Shown: positions 3,369 to 63,978 of the stretch, one piece after another
Layout of the letters: every line of letters begins with the position of its first letter
Numbering within the stretch: the first letter of the stretch is position 1
Source of the DNA: an uncultured Prevotellaceae bacterium
GTDB taxonomy: Bacteria > Bacteroidota > Bacteroidia > Bacteroidales > Bacteroidaceae
Length of the DNA stretch: 64,000 bases
Reading direction: 5' to 3'
Assembly (NCBI GenBank): GCA_900314655.1
Contig: OMWC01000005.1
Coordinates: 1 to 64,000 of the forward strand
The notes under the pieces: generated by a model
Databases searched by the model: none
Seen by the model: only the letters and a program-made list of their open reading frames with translations
Told to the model about the DNA's origin: nothing
Position numbers and translations under genes: made by a program

Positions 3369-4529
3369 CTACAATAGTTTCTTCAACTCCTCAATGTCTG
3401 GTAGAGTCTTGCGTAACTCTTCAGGCATATCAGTAGTGGTTTTGTAGGTAGCTACTCCCATAGGCTTATTATAGTCACGGATGACAAACTCTACGAACTC
3501 ACGATTTGCTTCTTTGCAGAGAACGATTCCTATTGCAGAGTTCTCATGTGGCTTCTTTACTTTGGCATCAAGTATAGAAAGGTATCCCATCAACTGGCCC
3601 AGATAGGAAGTCTTGAACTCGCCAGTCTTCAGCTCAACGACTACAAGCGCATTCAACTCGCGATTGAAGAACAGCAAGTCAGGGAAATGTTCTACGCCGT
3701 AAACTTCTAAGTGATACTGATTACCAACAAAAGTAAAATCACGCCCAAAGGTCATGATGAACTGTTTGACATTCTCCACAATTTGTTGTTCCACCACTCT
3801 CTCGTCTACATCAATAGCTTGACGCTCTCCAATCTGTTCTACATTGATAAAGTCTAGCAGATAAGAATCTTTGAACATCATTACAGCTTTGCGAGCCAAT
3901 TCAGCTTGTGGAATTGTACTCTTGAAGTTACTGGGTATTGAGTCTCGATGATCATAGGCATTGGAGTTTATAAGCCGTATGACTTCCTTTTCAGTAAGGT
4001 TCTCTTCTGCAACACGATGTATATAATAATACTGAGCATCTAAATCTTTTACCCCTTCGATAATACGTATATGTTGTGTGAAAGGGACTCTAAAGAAGTC
4101 TTCAGCTGGAAAATTCTTGATTTCAGGAATTCGTATAGATTGGTAGATGTCTATTTCATGGTTTTGCAATTCGGCAATTGCGCTTGCCGATTTGTCAGAT
4201 TCCATTTCGACAAGTACACTTGCCGAATTATTTTCGTCGGTCGTGACCGATGAATTTGGGTCAAGCATTTGCCAATTCTCGTAGAACTTCCGCATATTTT
4301 TCATACTTGACGCAGAATACCCTTTTAATCCTGGAAGTTCTTTTCGTAATATCTGGCTGATAGACTCCAAGGCTCCAGTGCCCCAAACTCCCTTGCGCGT
4401 GTTCTGAGACACAAACTTGCCAATGCCGAAATAGACTGCCAACTGTATGCGGTTCACACCTTTAGCTGCTTCGTACTGCCCCTGCAAGATTGCCGTTTTT
4501 ATTATTTCAGCTGCAGGTCTGTATAACAA
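3369..4529 (-). CDS. yhcG: YhcG/DUF1016-family PD-(D/E)XK nuclease
   Basis: The N-terminal half matches the helical DUF1016 domain (GVWGTGALESISQILRKEL followed by GYSASSMKNMRKFYENW). The C-terminal half is the PD-(D/E)XK nuclease domain. Counting from the TTG at 4529, HFPDLLFF gives D284 and VVVELKTGEF gives E299 and K301. The family is cytoplasmic, widespread near mobile and defence genes, and thought to act on DNA. The only start in this frame is a TTG, with a stop just upstream. In another frame an ATG at 4546 reads MEENEICYTDLQLK and ends at a TAA after 14 codons. That peptide looks like the normal N-terminus of this family, so a one-base frameshift near 4505-4515 probably separates the true start from the rest. 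Whether it is a sequencing error, a phase-variable start or a decaying gene is open. Confidence 0.8.
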   Translation of the reverse strand: MLYRPAAEIIKTAILQGQYEAAKGVNRIQLAVYFGIGKFVSQNTRKGVWGTGALESISQILRKELPGLKGYSASSMKNMRKFYENWQMLDPNSSVTTDENNSASVLVEMESDKSASAIAELQNHEIDIYQSIRIPEIKNFPAEDFFRVPFTQHIRIIEGVKDLDAQYYYIHRVAEENLTEKEVIRLINSNAYDHRDSIPSNFKSTIPQAELARKAVMMFKDSYLLDFINVEQIGERQAIDVDERVVEQQIVENVKQFIMTFGRDFTFVGNQYHLEVYGVEHFPDLLFFNRELNALVVVELKTGEFKTSYLGQLMGYLSILDAKVKKPHENSAIGIVLCKEANREFVEFVIRDYNKPMGVATYKTTTDMPEELRKTLPDIEELKKLL

Positions 4530-5203: not shown

Positions 5204-5236
5204 TTTGGCTAATTGAGAATAAGTTAGTATTTTTGC
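5204..5236 (+). promoter_or_regulatory. housekeeping promoter of the caspase/sigma operon
   Basis: TTTG at 5204-5207 and TATTTTTG at 5229-5236, with a 21-nt spacer, fit the Bacteroidetes -33/-7 consensus well. Transcription would start near 5243, about 19 nt before the first ATG of the caspase gene. Constitutive expression of the protease, sigma and anti-sigma genes from this site would fit a poised sensing module. Confidence 0.65.
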
Positions 5237-5261: not shown

Positions 5262-6149
5262 ATGATGATGTTCAGAAATAATATAATAATTGGAATTCTA
5301 CTGTTCCTATGTGCTTTGTCTGCCCAGAGCCAATCGAAGCGAGCTTTTTTAGTTGGCATCTCCAAATACACTTATCTCACTAAGTCATCTGATGATATTT
5401 GGTCAAATATTCATGGAGCTAATGATGTAGAGTTATTATCTTTAACGTTGAAGAAACAAAACTTTATTATCAAGAAAATAACAGATAAGGCAGCAACAGC
5501 AAAACAAATCAGAAAAGAACTGCCACGTTTTATTTCTTCCTGTCAACCAGGGGATATTGTTTATCTGCACTTTTCCTGTCATGGGCAGCCTGTGGAAGAC
5601 TTAAACGGTGATGAGGATGATGGTTGGGATGAAGCAATCGTTCCATTTGATGCCTTAAAGGTTTACCAAAAGAAAAAATATACAGGCGAGAATCATATCA
5701 TCGATGATGAATTAAATGGATATCTGCGCTCTCTTCGTACTAAAATAGGAGCAAAAGGATTTGTGTATGTAGTCATAGACGCTTGCCATGCCGGATCATC
5801 ATATAGAGGCGAAGAAGAGGATGGCGTCATTATTCGTGGAACCAACCGTGGTTTTACTTCAACAGGAAAACGGTTCGCTCCAAGGCTTGACAAGCGAGGT
5901 AAGATAAGAGTGGAAAAATCACCTTCAATGGCCAATATCTGCATACTTGAAGCTTGTAGGCCTTATCAGGTCAATAGCGAAATAAAGGAGAATGGTAAAT
6001 TCTATGGATCGCTGTCCTTTTACGTAGATAAGGTATTAAGGACAACGAAATTGGATAAAAAAATATCTTGGACAGAGAAGGTTGCTTCACTGATGAATAG
6101 AGATGCCCGGTTAGTTCGGCAAAACTTAGTCGTAGAATCCAGTCTATAA
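5262..6149 (+). CDS. secreted caspase-family (metacaspase-like, C14) protease
   Basis: The 295-aa product has a signal peptide (residues 1 to about 24, ending LCALSAQSQ) and then a caspase p20-like domain. It shows the strand RAFLVGISKY, the catalytic His in HFSCHGQ (H107) and the catalytic Cys in VIDACHAGSS (C175). The acidic loop GDEDDGWDEAIVPFD after the His is typical of metacaspases, which cut after basic residues. Length fits a single catalytic domain without a fused sensor. The signal peptide places it in the periplasm, which is unusual for a caspase-like enzyme. It is the first of four tightly spaced genes (9 nt to the sigma gene). A plausible substrate is the periplasmic domain of the anti-sigma-like protein two genes on, or the TPR-CHAT protein. 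Three ATGs in a row leave the exact start open by two codons. The domain call is firm; the role is inferred. Confidence 0.88.
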   Translation: MMMFRNNIIIGILLFLCALSAQSQSKRAFLVGISKYTYLTKSSDDIWSNIHGANDVELLSLTLKKQNFIIKKITDKAATAKQIRKELPRFISSCQPGDIVYLHFSCHGQPVEDLNGDEDDGWDEAIVPFDALKVYQKKKYTGENHIIDDELNGYLRSLRTKIGAKGFVYVVIDACHAGSSYRGEEEDGVIIRGTNRGFTSTGKRFAPRLDKRGKIRVEKSPSMANICILEACRPYQVNSEIKENGKFYGSLSFYVDKVLRTTKLDKKISWTEKVASLMNRDARLVRQNLVVESSL

Positions 6150-6158
6150 TAATTAATT

Positions 6159-6755
6159 ATGCTTAAAAGCTTACATAGGAATAAAGACGAGAAGGAAAAG
6201 AAACTCGAGAAATTTGCCAAAGAGCAATGGCAAAAGACGAGGTCTTTCTTAATTAGTCGCTATTCATTGTCAGAAGATGAATGTGCAGACGTATTCCAGG
6301 ATTCGCTTGTCATATTATGGAGAAACATAAACGAGAATAAAGTCGATTCAAAGGATTTAGGTTTATCTAGTTCTACTTATTTCATGACAATCTGTCGAAA
6401 CAAAACGATGGAACTACTAAGAAGCAAGAGCAAATATGTGACAACCCCGTACGAGATTAAACCCAGTAAAGATTTCCAAGTTTTTCAAGAAAACCAAGTT
6501 GAAAAGATTCTATCTTTAGAAGATGCCCATGAGAATATCCAAAAGGAGAAAGAAGCATTAGTAAGAGACATCGTAAAGAATCTCCCATCACCATGTAATG
6601 AATTGCTATGGGGGTACTATGGTGACGGTCACTCTATGAGAATGCTCGCAAAAATGTTTAACTATGCCAGCGAGAATGCGGTAAAAGTCACCAAACATCG
6701 TTGTTGTGAGAAATTCCGAGTAAGATACAGTGAAATGAGGAAATCGTTATTTTAA
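6159..6755 (+). CDS. ECF-type sigma-70 family sigma factor
   Basis: The 198-aa product has the two helical domains of group IV (ECF) sigma factors. Region 2 spans about residues 20-85 (LSEDECADVFQDSLVILWRN, then STYFMTICRNKTMELLRSK). Region 4 spans about 130-190 (VKNLPSPCNELLWGYYGDG, then a helix-turn-helix around MRMLAKMFNYASENAVKVTK). It lacks regions 1 and 3, as ECF factors do. It is cytoplasmic and directs RNA polymerase to alternative promoters. It begins 9 nt after the caspase gene and is followed after 13 nt by a single-span protein of anti-sigma layout. Three repeated bipartite sites downstream in the same island (9993, 10139, 11128) are candidate targets, since they carry an AAC-containing upstream box and lack the housekeeping -7 box. 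There is no housekeeping promoter directly before it, so it should be expressed with the caspase. Confidence 0.88.
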   Translation: MLKSLHRNKDEKEKKLEKFAKEQWQKTRSFLISRYSLSEDECADVFQDSLVILWRNINENKVDSKDLGLSSSTYFMTICRNKTMELLRSKSKYVTTPYEIKPSKDFQVFQENQVEKILSLEDAHENIQKEKEALVRDIVKNLPSPCNELLWGYYGDGHSMRMLAKMFNYASENAVKVTKHRCCEKFRVRYSEMRKSLF

Positions 6756-6768
6756 AACAAGGCACATT

Positions 6769-7476
6769 ATGACTGATACAGAGAATAACATACAAGAAAA
6801 GGAACTTCAAAATGATGAGCAAATCAGTCGTTTCATGCAAGGACTTATGGAGGCTGACGAAGAAACTGCTTTCCTGGAAGAACTGAAGAACAATGAAGAT
6901 TTGCGCAATCAGGCCATTGCACAAGCAAGACTTGTGAAAGGGATGAAACAGGTGGATGAAGAACTGAAAGATGCATTCCGACAGGCTGATAAGCAAACTA
7001 TAAGTAGAATTGCTAATGAGGTTGTTGGCGGTAAGAAGAAATCTGCTCATTGGCTTGCTATTGCGGCATCTATAGTATTCATCGTCTTCGTTGGCTTCAA
7101 GTCATACGACTACTATGATACGACCAGTATTGGTAGGGAATATGCTAACACATTCCCTACATCAACGATTATAAGAGGTGAAGCAAATACAGATGTTGAC
7201 ACAGAACTTACTATGTTATTTAATAATGTAGCAGAGGGTAAAGATTTAGATAGCACCACTTCCCGACTCAAAACGTTATGGGAACTATCAAAACAGGATA
7301 CCTATAATGACTATACCGATTATTCTCCATATATCGGGTGGAATCTTGCTGTTGGATATTTGCGTAATTATGAAAAAACTAAGGCACGTAGTGTTCTATC
7401 TGAAATGGAAACCATATATGATAATGAAACAATTACAGGAAAAAAAGTTAGAGAACTTATAAAGGCAATTGAATAG
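6769..7476 (+). CDS. single-span anti-sigma-like membrane protein
   Basis: The 235-aa product has an acidic helical N-terminal segment (ISRFMQGLMEADEETAFLEE, about residues 19-60). This resembles the cytoplasmic part of many Bacteroidetes anti-sigma factors, in which a short 'size of protein / cleavage' helix is followed by NNEDLR. One membrane span lies at about 94-110 (LAIAASIVFIVFVGF). Lysines GGKKK sit just before it, so by the positive-inside rule the N-terminus is cytoplasmic and residues 111-235 are periplasmic. The periplasmic part looks helical and TPR-like (WNLAVGYLRNYEKTKARSVL). I see no zinc-binding HxxxCxxC motif, so it is not a ZAS-type anti-sigma factor. Its place between the sigma gene and the TPR-CHAT gene, with 13-nt and 6-nt gaps, makes it the natural candidate to hold the sigma factor and to be released by proteolysis. 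That role is inference. Confidence 0.6.
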   Translation: MTDTENNIQEKELQNDEQISRFMQGLMEADEETAFLEELKNNEDLRNQAIAQARLVKGMKQVDEELKDAFRQADKQTISRIANEVVGGKKKSAHWLAIAASIVFIVFVGFKSYDYYDTTSIGREYANTFPTSTIIRGEANTDVDTELTMLFNNVAEGKDLDSTTSRLKTLWELSKQDTYNDYTDYSPYIGWNLAVGYLRNYEKTKARSVLSEMETIYDNETITGKKVRELIKAIE

Positions 7477-7482
7477 ATTACC

Positions 7483-9960
7483 ATGAGGCTTAGATTACTG
7501 TTTTTATTGATCGGATTATTATCATTAACACCATCATATTCGCAAAACGTCGAGTATGCTTCTGCTGATGAACTGATTCGTGACATTAAAAGTAGGAATT
7601 TTGAAAAGCCCATATCATATATGAGGCAGTATCTGGCTTCAGTAGAAAATGGTACTGAAGTGTTTCAAGATACTACATATATAGGCATGACAACCCTCTT
7701 AGCTTCAGCATATACTCAAAATAACCAAATACACGAGGCAGATACCTTGCTTGCACATGTCATTAATTACATGGAAAGAGCAGGAAAGAAGTCATCATTA
7801 GCATATTCTCTATTTGTTGCAAAAGGAGGTGTATTGAGTCTGTTGCACAATTACGATTTAGCTTCAGTTTACTTAAAATTAGCCCTTGAAATGGTAAATG
7901 AACAAGAAGGGGAAAAAGAGAACTACTCTGTTATTCTGAGTATGTTGGCTGTATGCTATATGGATATGAATGATTTAGAAGGAGCACGAAAAGAAATAGA
8001 AGAATCAATTGCCATCATTGACCAATCCACATCAAAGTTTTCTAAATCAAACAAAATTGCCGTTTATCAAAAAGCAGGAGCAATCTATAATGAATTGGGA
8101 CTCTTTGATAAAACAGAATACTTCACCAAGAAAGCTTATGATTTATCTATAGGAAATGATTTATATGTTTCCGAATTTATAAATGCTGCAAATAATCTTG
8201 CCATTTTCTATTTAAACAAAGGACGATATGCTGAGGCATTGAAGGTTTTACATCAAATGGAAAAGAAACCTTTGTCAGAGATAGAAAGAAGTAATGTTTA
8301 TAATAGCATCTTTCTTGCCAATTATTATTTGGACAATGAAGAGGAAACTGTTAAATATGCAGACCTCTGTAGTAATAGTTTGAAAGTTATTTCTTCAGAA
8401 CTGAATGCATCATTCCCAGGTATGACTACAGACAATATTTGGGAAAAGAATGCAATGCAGTTAAAGGTTAATATGGGAATTTTGGACAAATTTCATCATA
8501 ACGCTAAAGCAGTTGAAATGTGTTATGATAATTGTCTGTTCATTAAAAACCTTGCTTACGATGATATGGAAAAATTGCGGCAAGCATCACAAACTGATAG
8601 TACTATTAACAACTTGTTTTCAGAAATCAGGATTTTAAAATCAGAAAGATTTGCAGGCAACCATAACGTATATAAATTGTTAGAGGAAAAAGAGAAACTA
8701 TTAAAAGAGGCTTTGTTAGAAAAAACCAATAATAGTATATCGATTCCTACATGGCGAGATATAAAGCAGTCATTAAAGCATAATGAATGTGCAATAGAGT
8801 TTATACAATATGTAGGTTTTGAAAGGGCAAATACAGAAACAAAAGAACTCAAATATGCTGCACTCATACTAACACCAGAGATTGATAGCCCCATCTTCAT
8901 TGAACTATGTACATTCAAGCAACTGCATAATGTTATATTAAACGCATTGATAGAACAAGAGATTGGCTTAAACGGATTGTATGTTCAGGGGGAGAAGCAA
9001 ATTCTATATGACTTGATTTGGAAACAAATAGATGCCTATGTAAAAAACTCTAAGTCGGTTTACATTTCTCCAATTTTAGATATCCAAGGTGTCAATTTGG
9101 GCTTTATCCCTTGCCCTGATGGGAGTTATTTGAATGATAAGTATGATATTAGGATCGTAACATCCACAGCCAAGGTTTGTAAGCAAGAAAGGACTCGATT
9201 ATCTGATGCGTATGTTTATGGTGGGATTGAGTATACCAAAGGGAACCGTAATTCGAACCAATTGTCTTATAGAAGCATAGTAATTAACGAATTGTGCGAT
9301 TCTACACGGAAAGGTTTTGGTTTTCTGCGAGCATCTGGGTATGAAGCTGATCAGATTGCAAATGCCCTTCAAGAAAAAAGTATTGAGACAAATCTTATAA
9401 AAGGGTCTGCCGCAGATGAAGTTTCATTTAGAAAGATGGATGGGAATTCTCCATCTATTATTCATTTATCTACACATGGTTTCTACCTTGTAGGTTTTGA
9501 TAAATATTCTGAGTATTTTGACAAACTTTTACCCTATTCCATCAAAGATAATTCGATGCTCTTGTCTGGCATACTATTGGCAGATGCTAACTCAGCATTA
9601 AGACAACCTAACGAAAAGACACCGCTTAATGACGGAGTAATAACGGCAGAAGAAATAGCAATGTTAGATTTAAGAAATACAGAACTCGTAGTTTTATCTG
9701 CTTGCGAAACAGCTATTGGTGTAAATATGCAAGAGGGGTTTGGAGGTCTTGTGAGAGCATTCAAAAATGCTGGAGTGAAAAGCGTTTTGGCAAGTTTGTG
9801 GCAAGTACCTGATGATGCAACCGCAAAACTTATGATTTCTTTTTATAAGATATGGTTGTCTGGAACCGAGATGCATTTGGCTTTGAAAATGGCCCAAAAA
9901 GAAATTTCAAAGCTATATCCTGATCCATATTACTGGGCATCGTTTATCTTTCTGGATTGA
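7483..9960 (+). CDS. secreted TPR-CHAT protease (caspase/separase superfamily)
   Basis: The 825-aa product opens with a signal peptide (residues 1 to about 20, LLFLLIGLLSLTPSYSQ). A TPR-like helical array covers about residues 40-340, with repeats around ALEMVNEQEGEKENY, AVYQKAGAIYNELGLFDKTE and LNKGRYAEALKVL. A linker follows, and then a C-terminal CHAT domain at about 540-825. The catalytic pair is visible: IIHLSTHGFY gives H665 and VVLSACETAIG gives C741. The end DPYYWASFIFLD is the normal end of CHAT domains. CHAT proteases include separase relatives and Csx29 of type III-E CRISPR systems, which cuts Csx30 to free a sigma factor. Here the enzyme is predicted to be periplasmic and encoded 6 nt after an anti-sigma-like gene. 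The TPR array probably recognises a partner or activating ligand. It is the last gene of the operon; a candidate ECF promoter starts about 30 nt after its stop. Confidence 0.88.
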   Translation: MRLRLLFLLIGLLSLTPSYSQNVEYASADELIRDIKSRNFEKPISYMRQYLASVENGTEVFQDTTYIGMTTLLASAYTQNNQIHEADTLLAHVINYMERAGKKSSLAYSLFVAKGGVLSLLHNYDLASVYLKLALEMVNEQEGEKENYSVILSMLAVCYMDMNDLEGARKEIEESIAIIDQSTSKFSKSNKIAVYQKAGAIYNELGLFDKTEYFTKKAYDLSIGNDLYVSEFINAANNLAIFYLNKGRYAEALKVLHQMEKKPLSEIERSNVYNSIFLANYYLDNEEETVKYADLCSNSLKVISSELNASFPGMTTDNIWEKNAMQLKVNMGILDKFHHNAKAVEMCYDNCLFIKNLAYDDMEKLRQASQTDSTINNLFSEIRILKSERFAGNHNVYKLLEEKEKLLKEALLEKTNNSISIPTWRDIKQSLKHNECAIEFIQYVGFERANTETKELKYAALILTPEIDSPIFIELCTFKQLHNVILNALIEQEIGLNGLYVQGEKQILYDLIWKQIDAYVKNSKSVYISPILDIQGVNLGFIPCPDGSYLNDKYDIRIVTSTAKVCKQERTRLSDAYVYGGIEYTKGNRNSNQLSYRSIVINELCDSTRKGFGFLRASGYEADQIANALQEKSIETNLIKGSAADEVSFRKMDGNSPSIIHLSTHGFYLVGFDKYSEYFDKLLPYSIKDNSMLLSGILLADANSALRQPNEKTPLNDGVITAEEIAMLDLRNTELVVLSACETAIGVNMQEGFGGLVRAFKNAGVKSVLASLWQVPDDATAKLMISFYKIWLSGTEMHLALKMAQKEISKLYPDPYYWASFIFLD

Positions 9961-10208: not shown

Positions 10209-10391
10209 ATGGAATCATTATTTTTCTTAGTTATTGCAGTATCGTTGGCATACGCAGTAGGTTGCTGGGGTAGAACCCGCAAGATTGGTTTTGGACTCGC
10301 TTTTGTCCTTTCATTGGTTAATTTGCTCGTTGGCATTATTGCCGTAGCCTGTTCAAAGAAACTTGAAACAAATAATGATAAGGAGGAATAA
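10209..10391 (+). CDS. small two-span membrane protein, 60 aa
   Basis: Two hydrophobic segments (about residues 3-20 and 27-48) flank a short basic loop, GRTRK, and a charged tail, KKLETNNDKEE. The loop would be cytoplasmic or periplasmic depending on insertion; the basic residues favour inside. I do not recognise the family. It follows two tandem copies of the bipartite site and is separated by 3 nt from the next membrane-protein gene, so the two form an operon that the island's sigma factor could control. The small size and its position downstream of proteases make it a candidate membrane-acting effector or a stress-response component, but nothing in the sequence proves that. Confidence 0.6.
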   Translation: MESLFFLVIAVSLAYAVGCWGRTRKIGFGLAFVLSLVNLLVGIIAVACSKKLETNNDKEE

Positions 10392-10394
10392 GAC

Positions 10395-11009
10395 ATGAAA
10401 ACAGCGGGTTGGATATTCATCGTAATTGGTGTATTGGCATTCTTAGGTGCTGTATCTAAAGGTAACAGTGTGTTTGGACCTTTATTCTGGATAGGATTAG
10501 GTGGAACATTAATCTATCTGAAAAGAGAGAAGGAAGAAACAAGTAATGAGAAAAAGGTGGTTGTTACACCCAAACCTGAACCTCACGATACCCCTCAGGT
10601 AAAAGAAGATAAGCCTGTTCAGAATTATCAGGAGCAAAATGCACCTGTAACTTTTGAACAGAAGGAGGCTGCACTCTGCCTGATAGCATTCTTTGCTGGA
10701 TATAATGATGACCTTTCTACTAATGGTGATGCATATAAACTCTCATATCAGTCTGCCATATTCTTTGGAATTGGAAATTACGAAGAAACACTAACACAAG
10801 CTCTTCCCAAATATCAAGATGCAGATAAACTGATAGATATGGTTTTAACTATCAAAGAAAGGAGATCAAAAGAGTTCATTCTTCTTACCTGTTATGATCT
10901 TTCCAAGATATCGGGGAAGCCGGAAGCGTATGAGTTTTTATACAACATAGCTGATGAGATGGGCTATAATAAAGAGAAATTTCACAAACTAATTGACCTT
11001 TACAATTAG
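10395..11009 (+). CDS. two-span membrane protein with soluble helical C-domain, 204 aa
   Basis: Residues 3-23 and about 28-43 are hydrophobic. A Pro/Glu/Lys linker (about 48-85) follows, and then a helical domain at about 86-204. The end of that domain (DLSKISGKPEAYEFLYNIAD then KEKFHKLIDLY) faintly recalls TerB-like helical domains, though I would not assign it. The gene starts 3 nt after the 60-aa gene and ends before a strong hairpin terminator at 11058, which closes a two-gene operon. The product is predicted to be anchored in the inner membrane with the helical domain in the cytoplasm. Function unknown; control by the bipartite sites upstream is inferred. Confidence 0.6.
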   Translation: MKTAGWIFIVIGVLAFLGAVSKGNSVFGPLFWIGLGGTLIYLKREKEETSNEKKVVVTPKPEPHDTPQVKEDKPVQNYQEQNAPVTFEQKEAALCLIAFFAGYNDDLSTNGDAYKLSYQSAIFFGIGNYEETLTQALPKYQDADKLIDMVLTIKERRSKEFILLTCYDLSKISGKPEAYEFLYNIADEMGYNKEKFHKLIDLYN

Positions 11010-57755: not shown

Positions 57756-58469
57756 TTAATCTTGTTTAAACAGTTGATGAATAAATTGTTTTCCTTTCTC
57801 CGTCCATACCAGATAGGTACGAGTGCGGACAGTTCCGAAGAGATCGCGATGAGTGTGTGTGCGGCAGGTAGCCAGTCCACGGCGGGCATACGGAGCATAA
57901 AGCATATACTGCCCGCTCTGCTCGTAGATGATGCTGTCCTGAAGCAGCCGCGTAGTCAGGTCGTGAACGGTCATTCCCAAGCCCTTCGCCACTTGCGTCA
58001 TCGTCAGGCAGTCCACCGAGTCGAGCACCTCATCCACATAGTCGGCTTTCGGCTGGAGATTGGCTATAAGCTGTTCTTTTTCCTCTACTTCTTTTTTTAG
58101 GATTATCGCAGCGCGGCACATGATTTCAAGGTCGGTCATCGGTCGCATTTCCTTTGCTAGCCTTTCCTCTTCCAGTTGCTTCCAACGTAGCACCAGTTTT
58201 GCGCGCGCTTCATCATTAAACTTTGTTGCAACATACAGACACTCGGTCTTTGTCAGAGAGTAACAGGGAACATTCCTCGTTCCACCGTTCGGTTGAACCA
58301 CCTCTCGGGATGTCAGCGCAAAATTGCGCCCACATATTTTCTTCCAGGCTGGTTCCATGTTCCGGATAGCTTTCATCACATCTTTGTGCTGCTTACCCGT
58401 CACTTCAGCAATCTCCAGCGAAGTCATCCGCTGCTCGCCATCATCACGATTTTTAATTAAATCAATCAT
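57756..58469 (-). CDS. Rha-family phage regulator with antirepressor-type C-domain
   Basis: The 237-aa product has a Rha N-terminal domain: MTSLEIAEVTGKQHKDVMKA, IRNMEPAWKKICGRNFALTS, PCYSLTKTECLYVATKFNDE and KLVLRWKQLEEERL. A C-terminal part with VDCLTMTQVAKGLGMTVHDL and RDLFGTVRTRTYLVWTEKGK resembles the KilA-C/phage antirepressor domain. Such proteins regulate prophage or phage-like element genes by binding DNA. It is probably the controlling gene of this remnant. The frame is open from 58469, but the first 15 codons may be extra, and the ATG at residue 16 (MTSLEI) is a plausible alternative start. Confidence 0.82.
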   Translation of the reverse strand: MIDLIKNRDDGEQRMTSLEIAEVTGKQHKDVMKAIRNMEPAWKKICGRNFALTSREVVQPNGGTRNVPCYSLTKTECLYVATKFNDEARAKLVLRWKQLEEERLAKEMRPMTDLEIMCRAAIILKKEVEEKEQLIANLQPKADYVDEVLDSVDCLTMTQVAKGLGMTVHDLTTRLLQDSIIYEQSGQYMLYAPYARRGLATCRTHTHRDLFGTVRTRTYLVWTEKGKQFIHQLFKQD

Positions 58470-60780: not shown

Positions 60781-63700
60781 TTACATTGACTCTACAATTT
60801 TGATTTCATCTTCCGTCAGCCCATACAGCTGATAGACGCGCTGGTCTATTTCGCGGTCGGTCTGGGCAATCTGTTCCGAGAGCTGCTGGCAGTCGTTGCG
60901 GTATTGGTTGAAGTAGTCTTCCCATTCGTCTTGCTGCGCGAGCGAGAGGTTAATCTTCTGCTTCTTCAGCTCAGCCACGAAGGCCTTGAATTCCAGCTGG
61001 TCGAATGTCTGCAACGCCGTCGTTATCTTCACGCCCTCGAAGTTTTCCGAAAGGCGGCGCAGGAAACGAGCGCGCTTCTCCTGCAATTGCTTATGAAGGG
61101 ATAAAATCGTGTCGGCGAGAGAGAATAAAGCGTCATCTTCGCTAATATTAGGAATAGGTATTTTGCCAAAATACTTCCATATCAGTTGATAGCCATTCTG
61201 AATTTGGGAGCAGAACTTCGTTATCAGCCACCAGCCCATACGAGAATTGAAAATGGCAAGCAACGCCTTGCACTCAGTTGGGATAAACCACATAGAATTG
61301 TTTGAATAGAATCCCTCCGTGTCGTAAATAAAACAAGGCTTTACTTGGAATGCTTGATACATTATCTTAGACTTGGCAAACTGATTGTAATAATCGCATG
61401 CTCGTAACTCCCACCAAAAATCTCCCTTGTCTGTTCTTTTCCTGCCCTTTTCAGCAAATGGTTCCAGCCATTCAGCTATTGAAGGATATTCTGCCTTTAG
61501 ATAGTTCCATGCATCAGCTTCATTATCGAACGTCTGCTCCCTTTGTGTCCAGCCTTTCTCAAACAAAATGAGATAGCTGACAGCTTCTGGCTTTCCGTAT
61601 GGAGTGATATTCCGTCCTTGCAAGAAAGGATAGATTCTTTCTTTGGCTCTTTCGTCCTCAGAGACGATTCTTTGGTATGTATTGGCATCAATAAGGAAAG
61701 CCTCTGAAAGTCCTGTTAATACACCTCTGTATGCTTCACCTCCGATAAAGTCTCTGAGAGTTTGATGACAAGACGAAAGGCGTTCCAGCATAGCATTTTC
61801 TTTTTGAGATGAGATAACCCATGTGTCGCTGGTGAATTGCGAAAGGTCAAACACCTCTTCCATGTTCTTTACATTCTGAATAAAATCTTGTGCATCAGCT
61901 GCTTTAAGAACAGACACACACATTTGTTTGGCTGGTTCGGAATTACGTCCAATGAATATGCAGGGATAGGTGGTAGCGCCTTCGAATATTTGTATATCGC
62001 CAAAATCGATTAGTCTTTCCAATCGTTTACTCAAGAAATATGCTCTCAGTTCTTTGCCATAGCCTGCCTGTAGCCACTTATTAGGCATTATGTAGGAAAC
62101 AATCCCATTAGGTTTAGAAAGTTGGAAACCCTTTTCAACAAATACACAATATAAGTCTCCTCTTTTATTATATGTCCAATATCCAACCTTTTGCAATTGG
62201 TTGGAAGTATCGAGTATGCTTTCAAGATGCACATACGGCGGATTACCAATCACGACATCGAATCCTCCGCGCTCGAACACTTTGGGGAACTGCTCCTGCC
62301 AGTTGAAGGCTTTGTCGCCTGCAACGGCGGGGTCGCTGATGAGCGAGTTGCCGCACTTGATGTTCTGGTTCAGCGAGTTCAGTTTGCGATGGGGCTTGGC
62401 GGTGCGCAGCCAGAGGGCTAGCTGGGCAATCTCCACGCTCTCCTCGTTGATGTCAACGCCGTAGAGGTTGTTCTCCAAGATGCTGTTTTCCACATCTTGG
62501 AACTGGATGGAATATCCCGACACCTTGGTCTCCATCTCGTCGATGAGCTTGTGCTCGTCCATCAGGAAACGGAGGGCGGCATTGAGGAAGGCGCCACTAC
62601 CACAGGCGGGGTCGAGGATGGTGATTTGCAAGAGCCATTCGCGGTATTGCTGCAACTGGTCGAGCAGGCGCTTCTTGGTCTGCATCTGGCGGCGTTGGTC
62701 GGAGAAATATTCTTCTTCAACGATGCCAAATTGCTGTTTCTTCTCAGCACAGAGCCGTCCCACGGTATTCTCCACGATGTACTTCGTAATATACTGAGGA
62801 GTATAGAACACGCCGTCTTGCTTGCGCTTGGAGAGCCTCTCCCCCAGCCCCTCCCCCATAGGGAGGGGAGCCGATGCCGATTGTATCTGTTGCGTCACCT
62901 CTTCAATCTCCGAAAGCGAGTTCTCGAAGATATGGCCGAGGATGTTCACGTCCACATCGCTCTCGAAGTCGTATTCCGAAAGCTTCCGGCAATGCTCAGC
63001 CAGCAGGTCATCAGAAATCGTAATATTATCGAGCACCTCGTCGGGCTTGAACAATCCGCCGTTATAGGCGAATATCTCGTATTTCTTACCCTTGAAGCCC
63101 GTATTCATATAGCCGAAATACTTCTTCAAACGGTCGTAGAACGGGCGGTATTCGTCCATCTCCTTCAGTTGTTCCCATTGGTCGATAATCTGCACCATCG
63201 AGTTGGGCGGCAGCAGACCGCAATCCTCTGCGAAGAAGATGAAGAGCAGGCGGTCGAGCAGCTTCTGAGTCTTCTTGAAGAGCAACAGCTGCCACTCCTT
63301 CTCGTCCTCGCCTTCGGCGACGGGATTATTCTTCAGGATATCGGTAAAGAGTGCGCGCTTGAACTGCGAGTAGTCACGATAAAGCGCTTTGGTAATCTGG
63401 TCTTCTGAGGACACCGATTCGCCTTTCATCTGCAAGGCAACGCCTTTGGCCACCTGCTGCCATGCCAGGCAGAGGTAGAGCTCGCGGAATTCGTCTTCGG
63501 TAAGCGTGAACAGATTCCACTCTCGGTATTCCACGGCGTTATCAATGTAGAGGCGCAGCTTCTCGAAGTTGGAAATCACCACAAGCCAGCATTGAGGATG
63601 CTGGCTCTTGTAGTTGAAGGCCTGCGGCTCCACTTTCGAGAGGTCGGTGGTCTTATGGTCTTTCAGCTCTATCACGCCAATCACCTTACCGTCGAGCTGG

Positions 63701-63978
63701 ATGGCCCCATCGGCTTTCTTCGAGTTGGTCTCGTTCTTCTTCTCGGTGATGAGGTTATAGTCGGGCGAGGGGTTGAGCGTGTAGCCCAGTATCTTCACGA
63801 ACAGTTCGCGGAGAAACCCCTCCTGAAACTGCTCTTCCTTCGATTGCAGTATGTTCTGCTGGATGTCCTTGTTCAGGAAATATTGCTGGAACGCCTCCCA
63901 AGGCTGGTTGGTGATTTCCTTGGGTAGCGCCTGCTTGTATTTATTGACTATTGTTTTCTGGAATAGCATAGTTGACAA
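60781..63978 (-). CDS. type IIG (Eco57I-like) restriction-modification enzyme
   Basis: The 1065-aa product combines three parts. First is an N-terminal PD-(D/E)XK-type nuclease domain (about 60-120: YTLNPSPDYNLITEKKNETN, KADGAIQLDGKVIGVIELKD). Next is a helical linker and a gamma-type N6-adenine methyltransferase with motif I DPACGSGAFL (from D456) and motif IV NPPY (N579). Last is a target-recognition region (about 720-950, SKIMYQAFQVKPCFIYDTEG, FCSQIQNGYQLIWKYFGKIP) and a helical end. Single-chain enzymes of this kind cut and methylate DNA and often defend against phages. An in-frame palindromic element encodes APLPMGEGLGERL (about 370-382), between the helical region and RKQDGVFYTPQYITKYIV. 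The start at 63978 is the first ATG, close to the window end, and the sequence before it is noncoding for 19 nt only. Confidence 0.88.
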   Translation of the reverse strand: MSTMLFQKTIVNKYKQALPKEITNQPWEAFQQYFLNKDIQQNILQSKEEQFQEGFLRELFVKILGYTLNPSPDYNLITEKKNETNSKKADGAIQLDGKVIGVIELKDHKTTDLSKVEPQAFNYKSQHPQCWLVVISNFEKLRLYIDNAVEYREWNLFTLTEDEFRELYLCLAWQQVAKGVALQMKGESVSSEDQITKALYRDYSQFKRALFTDILKNNPVAEGEDEKEWQLLLFKKTQKLLDRLLFIFFAEDCGLLPPNSMVQIIDQWEQLKEMDEYRPFYDRLKKYFGYMNTGFKGKKYEIFAYNGGLFKPDEVLDNITISDDLLAEHCRKLSEYDFESDVDVNILGHIFENSLSEIEEVTQQIQSASAPLPMGEGLGERLSKRKQDGVFYTPQYITKYIVENTVGRLCAEKKQQFGIVEEEYFSDQRRQMQTKKRLLDQLQQYREWLLQITILDPACGSGAFLNAALRFLMDEHKLIDEMETKVSGYSIQFQDVENSILENNLYGVDINEESVEIAQLALWLRTAKPHRKLNSLNQNIKCGNSLISDPAVAGDKAFNWQEQFPKVFERGGFDVVIGNPPYVHLESILDTSNQLQKVGYWTYNKRGDLYCVFVEKGFQLSKPNGIVSYIMPNKWLQAGYGKELRAYFLSKRLERLIDFGDIQIFEGATTYPCIFIGRNSEPAKQMCVSVLKAADAQDFIQNVKNMEEVFDLSQFTSDTWVISSQKENAMLERLSSCHQTLRDFIGGEAYRGVLTGLSEAFLIDANTYQRIVSEDERAKERIYPFLQGRNITPYGKPEAVSYLILFEKGWTQREQTFDNEADAWNYLKAEYPSIAEWLEPFAEKGRKRTDKGDFWWELRACDYYNQFAKSKIMYQAFQVKPCFIYDTEGFYSNNSMWFIPTECKALLAIFNSRMGWWLITKFCSQIQNGYQLIWKYFGKIPIPNISEDDALFSLADTILSLHKQLQEKRARFLRRLSENFEGVKITTALQTFDQLEFKAFVAELKKQKINLSLAQQDEWEDYFNQYRNDCQQLSEQIAQTDREIDQRVYQLYGLTEDEIKIVESM
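62831..62873. repeat. palindromic element inside the restriction-modification gene
   Basis: GAGCCTCTCCCCCAGCCCCT, then CCCCCATAGGGAGGGGAG, is translated as APLPMGEGLGERL just before the methyltransferase domain. Confidence 0.75.

Follow-up and report, generated by a model that had tools for sequence, protein, structure and literature searches.

Here we describe a four-gene cassette found in a 64,000-nucleotide stretch of DNA from an uncultured Prevotellaceae bacterium (assembly GCA_900314655.1, contig OMWC01000005.1; the whole stretch is referred to below as the window). It encodes a secreted metacaspase-like protease (CASP), an extracytoplasmic function (ECF) sigma factor (SIG), an anti-sigma-like protein (ANTI) and a tetratricopeptide repeat (TPR)-CHAT protease (CHAT). 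We read the cassette as a sigma-factor switch that acts across the membrane and is gated by caspase-fold proteases, and give this reading, in which the cut itself is something we infer, a probability of roughly 60%. The proteases are encoded beside a putative membrane-bound brake on a sigma factor, and a cut of this brake from the outside probably turns genes on, phage-defense genes sometimes among them. Several lines of evidence point this way: the four families are conserved together, ANTI is paired with CHAT, the predicted topology puts the proteases and part of ANTI on the same side of the membrane, and ANTI carries a nearly invariant Arg136-Gly137. Kinship further suggests a preference for arginine, through the metacaspase match of CASP and the separase and Arg-gingipain folds that resemble CHAT, a cassette-specific promoter element in Prevotella-type loci speaks for feedback, and the Csx29/Csx30/CASP-sigma module and DdvA offer precedents by analogy.

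The four families form a conserved cassette

The cassette is carried by gut and rumen Bacteroidota, with one or two exported caspase-like proteases. In the window its four genes are encoded on the forward strand with intergenic gaps of 9, 13 and 6 nt (Table 1). CASP belongs to the Peptidase_C14 family (Pfam, 4.3e-17; 63 bits with PF00656) and CHAT to the Pfam CHAT family (2e-46), with TPRs in addition, while SIG matches the sigma70-ECF model TIGR02937 (1e-14) and, by its profile, the structures of SigW, RpoE and SigH; ANTI has nothing above the Pfam or NCBIfam cut-off. The initial annotation of this DNA, made from the sequence alone, had described four genes with 6-13 nt gaps, two of them caspase-superfamily proteases with intact dyads and signal peptides, and an ECF sigma factor between the two. 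All of this is borne out, coordinates included, and the dyads and signals prove to be conserved in homologues. In the genome that holds the window, the cassette queries detected a single caspase and a single CHAT homologue. Each lies inside the cassette, so their closeness does not come from abundance.

A caspase-alignment scan of named Bacteroidales genomes returned 80 loci, which together with other sampled genomes made 83 distinct caspase loci; SIG and ANTI are present in 67, CHAT in 73 and all of them in 64. When the count was restricted to the 61 Bacteroidales loci that were anchored on the caspase and flanked by 3.5 kb or more on either side, CHAT was found in 59, SIG with ANTI in 52 and all four families in 52. 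The cassette is not a chance cluster. The initial annotation had asked whether the four families occur together and whether gene order and the anti-sigma-like gene are conserved. The set is conserved, sigma and anti-sigma-like genes included, but the order varies: CASP-SIG-ANTI-CHAT in the window, and elsewhere CHAT-CASP-SIG-ANTI, SIG-ANTI-cargo-CHAT-CASP, or CASP-SIG-ANTI with CHAT on the opposite strand. The parts can also be separated: genome G300 carries CASP-CHAT-CHAT on one contig and SIG-ANTI on a different one, and in genome G476 CASP/CHAT and SIG-ANTI appear about 10-20 kb apart on one contig (L118, L169). Any caspase relative was detected in 44 of 295 Bacteroidales genomes. Pairwise distance matrices of CASP, SIG and ANTI are correlated (Mantel r 0.82-0.89, with no species-tree control).

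A diverged version of the cassette is seen at locus L058, which encodes a sigma-like protein of 290 aa, a one-span TPR protein of 379 aa, a protein of 298 aa, a two-span caspase of 349 aa, a five-span protein of 339 aa and a CHAT protein of 882 aa.

Both proteases carry export signals and keep their catalytic residues

Export was scored by a hydrophobicity heuristic made for this analysis, which is not SignalP. A signal-type hydrophobic N-terminus was found in 80/83 CASP and 74/82 CHAT proteins and in none of the 67 SIG and 69 ANTI proteins. The catalytic dyads are kept throughout, with H107 in 80/80 and C175 in 79/80 CASP sequences, and H665 in 65/65 and C741 in 64/65 CHAT sequences, the remaining residue being an X in both cases. 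CASP also keeps D55 and D173, the acid of a D-x-C motif, in 80/80 sequences, and its profile finds the metacaspases MCA1 (1.1e-20) and MCA2 (4e-15) in the PDB. Metacaspases cut after Arg or Lys, with acids of this kind binding the Arg or Lys. An invariant Arg-Gly lies 17 residues past the catalytic Cys of CASP (80/80), and many caspases self-process at a similar position.

The AlphaFold2 (AF2) model of CHAT residues 431-825 (pLDDT 86.9, pTM 0.89) has as its nearest folds Csx29 (Z 26), separase (Z 25), DdvA (Z 19) and the gingipains (Z 18-19), including Arg-gingipain. This region aligns to Csx29 419-747 over about 300 residues, both caspase-like halves being present. Separase, a relative of CHAT, cuts after Arg.

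ANTI spans the membrane and carries a candidate cleavage site

According to its AF2 model (pLDDT 85.9, pTM 0.60), ANTI consists of a cytoplasmic helical domain (aa 2-87), a membrane helix starting at about aa 93 and, on the periplasmic side, a linker (126-140) followed by a TPR-like domain (141-234). The membrane span is found in 89/89 homologues, and 81/89 follow the positive-inside rule, with a net charge of +3.2 before the span versus 0 after it. The N-in/C-out orientation that the initial annotation had proposed is thus the predicted one, and it is conserved. A comparison with the PDB, which covered essentially the C-terminal half of the model, returned nothing other than TPR folds (best Z 10.3). 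The N-terminal domain is modeled as four helices with a low-confidence link preceding the fourth. No HxxxCxxC zinc motif was found in 61 ANTI N-terminal domains.

The periplasmic linker varies, with the exception of position 136, which is Arg in 85/89 and Lys in 2/89 homologues and is followed by Gly in 71 and Ser in 12. The entropy at Arg136 is 0.33 bit versus 2-3 bits in its neighbors. This residue sits 23-42 residues (median 27) past the span, and the AF2 model shows it as coil, with the membrane helix on one side and the confidently modeled TPR-like domain on the other. Arg136-Gly137 is therefore a candidate cleavage site. In the window the ANTI and CASP Arg-Gly sites read VIIRGT and TIIRGE, but no correlated P2 residue was found between the two (9/69 identical), so that their likeness is limited to Arg-Gly itself.

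The genome of the window encodes a second SIG-ANTI-like pair (contig C40 of G000, L188), in which K-G replaces R-G and which has no adjoining protease.

SIG-ANTI-CHAT is the core unit across Bacteroidota

Relatives recovered by the ANTI profile are present in 177/393 Bacteroidales genomes (E 1e-3) and in 75/296 genomes sampled across the phylum (E 1e-8). The neighborhoods of 20 top matches from beyond Bacteroidales nearly all have SIG ahead of ANTI, and the Arg-Gly (or Arg-Ser) site is retained in these ANTI proteins. We then examined 20 further Bacteroidota genomes picked by ANTI alone, using a radius of 9 kb: 39/47 ANTI genes have a CHAT gene within this distance, against 0.61 expected under random placement, and 40/46 CHAT genes have an ANTI gene. 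Two of 30 ANTI genomes, G742 and G778, lack CHAT. G742, in which no CHAT of the cassette family was detectable, has a caspase-family gene near ANTI (L265), and G778 has no recognizable sigma gene adjoining ANTI. Since the pairing of ANTI with CHAT was obtained without selecting for caspases, the core unit is SIG-ANTI-CHAT, which predates the caspase, CASP having been added in Bacteroidales.

At caspase-less loci CHAT ends in a membrane helix and a basic tail, and most of these proteins have a signal sequence as well. This build would hold the protease of these relatives on the periplasmic side of the inner membrane.

At L265, SIG-ANTI is followed on the opposite strand by genes for a PKD/laminin-G protein, a TPR protein and a protein kinase, and then by the caspase-family gene.

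Prevotella-type loci share a promoter element

In Prevotella-type loci an element of the form CTTTTATAC-N-AAAAGGTAAC (the GGTAAC element) lies about 45-50 nt before CASP in 23/68 upstream regions. It also precedes opposite-strand CHAT genes in 10/30 cases and is found before both genes in seven loci, while shuffled sequence carries it at 0.05%. In 18 of the 23 CASP upstream regions the element is followed by TAnnTTTG, always with a spacing of 22 nt. A looser pattern matched 33 times in 13 whole genomes, about 23 of these matches being at the cassette when counted by position, and the strict form is confined to the cassette in the genomes that have it. The simplest inference is that SIG reads this element.

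The element also accompanies genes outside the core. A divergent operon upstream of CASP, seen among L090-L130 (for example L096, 6705-8850), has the cassette promoter element too; its products are a one-span protein of 180 aa, a second protein of 187 aa and a four-span DUF4407 protein. Genes encoding proteins of 412-423 aa, divergent to CHAT at L090, L091, L105, L110 and L120 (14040-15275 in L120), have the same element; their products combine a weak exonuclease VII large-subunit-like region with a C-terminal membrane helix.

Some cassettes carry defense-type cargo

A variable slot repeatedly carries genes of defense type, such as AbiH, SIR2 and Lit-type U49. Across the loci, the genes in, or directly joined to, the cassette include AbiH (L006, L076), SIR2_2 (L096, L115), DUF2971 (L066, L087), Schlafen AlbA (L083), Lit-type Peptidase_U49 (L136, L137), DUF3800 (L070, L130), DUF3990 (L131, L138), PARG (L062) and SocA (L115). 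By phmmer these families account for 15/41 genes in the slot versus 2/714 other genes of the loci, one of those two adjoining a core gene. The families were chosen from the slot itself, so that what counts here is their recurrence and their near-absence elsewhere. The cassette in the window has no insert of this kind.

A proposed switch and its alternatives

We propose that at rest SIG would be held at the inner membrane by ANTI. An envelope stimulus, perhaps sensed by the TPR regions, would activate CHAT and/or CASP, which would cut the periplasmic linker of ANTI after R136, about 27 residues outside the membrane. Further proteolysis, as for RseA, would then free SIG to transcribe the cassette, in a positive feedback, together with linked effector genes. 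Phage or another attack sensed at the envelope would be a plausible input, because the linked genes are of defense type in a subset of loci. The initial annotation had suggested that periplasmic proteases cut a membrane anti-sigma factor; the Arg-Gly site, the ANTI-CHAT pairing and the anchoring of CHAT fit this idea, but the design can do without the caspase. Three findings that it had named beforehand as contrary to its proposal were not made: sigma and anti-sigma-like genes are not regularly missing, the C-terminus of ANTI is not predicted to be cytoplasmic, and the export signals are conserved. A broader version holds that a Bacteroidota-wide family uses a periplasmic CHAT, or in Bacteroidales a CHAT-metacaspase cascade, to cut a membrane anti-sigma factor after a conserved Arg and so to control an ECF regulon that includes abortive-infection and phage-defense genes, forming an extracytoplasmic caspase pathway that senses envelope attack; we put this forward tentatively, as an extension with the odds somewhat against it.

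Several observations weigh against the proposed switch. The N-terminal domain of ANTI is weakly related to known anti-sigma domains, with zf-HC2 matching 5/61 members at best with 5.8e-4. The conserved Arg of ANTI could be structural instead, and it is also kept at loci that lack a neighboring protease gene (L169, L171, L259-L262). The sigma gene is missing from some CASP loci, with or without CHAT (L040, L043, L109, L117-L119, L134), and CHAT distances correlate less with those of the other three families (Mantel r 0.37-0.45, again with no species-tree control). SIG is the presumed reader of the GGTAAC element. This element is absent from the window, where the cassette has a promoter pattern of housekeeping type, so that feedback is unsupported for this locus. 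Defense-type cargo is present in a minority of loci.

The main rival explanation reverses the roles: SIG and ANTI would answer another signal, such as a ligand of the ANTI TPRs, and induce exported CASP and CHAT against other targets. The cassette-specific promoter element common to CASP and CHAT genes in Prevotella-type loci is what such an arrangement would produce, control of their own operon is common for ECF factors, and defense-type cargo lies in the same units. What this explanation leaves unaccounted for is the near-invariant Arg-Gly in an otherwise variable ANTI linker, as well as the almost one-to-one pairing of ANTI with a CHAT anchored beside it at the inner membrane. We regard it as unlikely by itself, and it can be compatible with the proposed switch inside one feedback loop. 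CHAT might also be a non-proteolytic sensory partner of ANTI, in a split form of the DdvA layout where the Arg is structural in the linker. DdvA does combine an anti-sigma factor and CHAT in one chain, and the TPR-like regions on both ANTI and CHAT may bind each other, but the conservation of His and Cys in both CHAT and CASP would be unexpected if activity were dispensable, and we consider this possibility improbable. Still more improbable, and already disfavored, is that SIG and ANTI are independent of the proteases and only travel with them on a mobile or defense island: the variable defense-type cargo in or beside the cassette and the patchy spread of caspase relatives in Bacteroidales would suit it, whereas the tight gaps and recurrence in 52/61 loci exceed what hitch-hiking would give, and ANTI and CHAT are paired across divergent families, several times per genome, with correlated divergence. 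The transmembrane switch is the reading that we prefer.

The locus in the window and its neighbors

Table 1. Positions in the window of the cassette genes and of the sites and promoter-like sequence discussed in the text
Feature	Position	Strand	Basis or remark
CASP, secreted metacaspase-like (C14) protease, 295 aa	5262..6149	+	Open reading frame list, Pfam
SIG, ECF sigma factor, 198 aa	6159..6755	+	Open reading frame list, NCBIfam
ANTI, one-span anti-sigma-like protein, 235 aa	6769..7476	+	Open reading frame list, AF2 model
CHAT, secreted TPR-CHAT protease, 825 aa	7483..9960	+	Open reading frame list, Pfam
CASP H107 codon	5580-5582	+	C175 codon 5784-5786
CASP invariant R192-G193, possible self-processing site	5835-5840	+	
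ANTI Arg136-Gly137, nearly invariant, candidate cleavage site in periplasmic linker	7174..7179	+	
CHAT H665 codon	9475-9477	+	C741 codon 9703-9705
Promoter-like TTTG-N20-TAttTTTG ahead of the cassette, of the Bacteroidetes -33/-7 type	5204..5235	+	Pattern match only

Directly upstream of the cassette, on the opposite strand, lies a gene for a YhcG/DUF1016-type PDDEXK nuclease (3369-4529; Pfam YhcG_C 4.7e-46), which is also the PADLOC candidate PDC-S02. Downstream of CHAT, two small genes (10209-11009) encode proteins of 60 and 204 aa with a membrane segment near the N-terminus, neither of which matched a family above cut-off. Further along, the window has genes for a Rha/KilAC antirepressor (57759-58469) and for a restriction-modification methylase that is Eco57I/MmeI-like (60784-63969), which hint at a prophage remnant or a defense island.

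Comparison with known systems

Regulated proteolysis of a membrane anti-sigma factor is of an already known kind, while this gene set is apparently undescribed; as the initial annotation had supposed, no published description was found in the part of the open-licence literature that was searched. Like the cassette, RseA/DegS and RsiW involve a one-span anti-sigma factor, an ECF sigma factor inside and a first cut outside, which for the cassette is proposed; DegS is a serine protease, whereas the candidate first cutters here are caspase-fold cysteine proteases. ANTI also resembles class I (ASDI) anti-sigma factors in having an adjacent cognate ECF gene (in nearly all loci) and a single span (89/89). 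Class I anti-sigma domains are found beside only 6% of Bacteroidetes ECF factors, the control of the rest having been left open (PMC7406223), and the ANTI family may fill part of this gap. CHAT-domain proteins were described in the neighborhood of ECF54, for which proteolysis was proposed, as was action without an anti-sigma factor (PMC8999054), whereas the cassette nearly always has an anti-sigma-like gene. CASP resembles the metacaspases MCA1 and MCA2 by profile, with the dyad and D-x-C kept, but differs from them in being a secreted, single-domain protein in an operon with a sigma factor.

The type III-E CRISPR protease module and DdvS/DdvA are the known systems nearest to the cassette. In type III-E CRISPR systems, Csx29 cleaves Csx30, an inhibitor of CASP-sigma, and in the published model this relieves the sigma factor (PMC10028731). 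Like the cassette, that module combines at a single locus a TPR-CHAT protease, a sigma factor of ECF type and an inhibitor of this factor. Csx29 works in the cytoplasm, where Cas7-11/RNA activates it, whereas the cassette has two proteases, both of them exported, and a membrane-spanning inhibitor. No Cas7-11/RAMP or Cas family was found among the window genes, nor in the genome by a search of limited sensitivity. CHAT and ANTI likewise gave no match to an NCBIfam model for Csx29 or Csx30, in a library whose coverage of these two families is uncertain. We considered SIG as a type III-E CASP-sigma on the basis of a match to NF041236 (1.7e-7) and set this aside, as general ECF models score higher; the match reaches 31 bits against a cut-off of 100. 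The view of the initial annotation that the design stands apart from CRISPR holds for the exported proteases and the membrane inhibitor, but the design is less isolated than it had assumed, as DdvA of Myxococcus carries CHAT.

In Myxococcus xanthus a CHAT domain is built into the transmembrane anti-sigma factor DdvA, whose partner DdvS controls an antiphage island (PMC12288465). Both DdvA and the cassette tie an ECF sigma factor to a periplasmic CHAT fold, as indicated for the cassette by the fold, the signals and the C-terminal anchor in relatives. The two functions form one chain in DdvA, whereas here they are encoded by separate genes (6769-7476 and 7483-9960) and a caspase is added. The CHAT sequence profile reaches DdvA only at E 0.018, so that this relation rests on structure. 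DdvA can be read as a version of the ANTI-CHAT pair in which the two proteins are fused.

The cassette is not a type III-E member and, by its layout, not of the DdvA type, but its mode of action would resemble both if ANTI is indeed cut as proposed. The switch would then be a new bacterial way of signaling across a membrane, leading to one-residue predictions at ANTI R136, CASP C175 and CHAT C741. Bacterial caspases would gain a defined signaling job outside the cytoplasm, and the logic of Csx29, Csx30 and their sigma factor would be part of something wider that does not depend on CRISPR and that counts DdvA as a fused relative.

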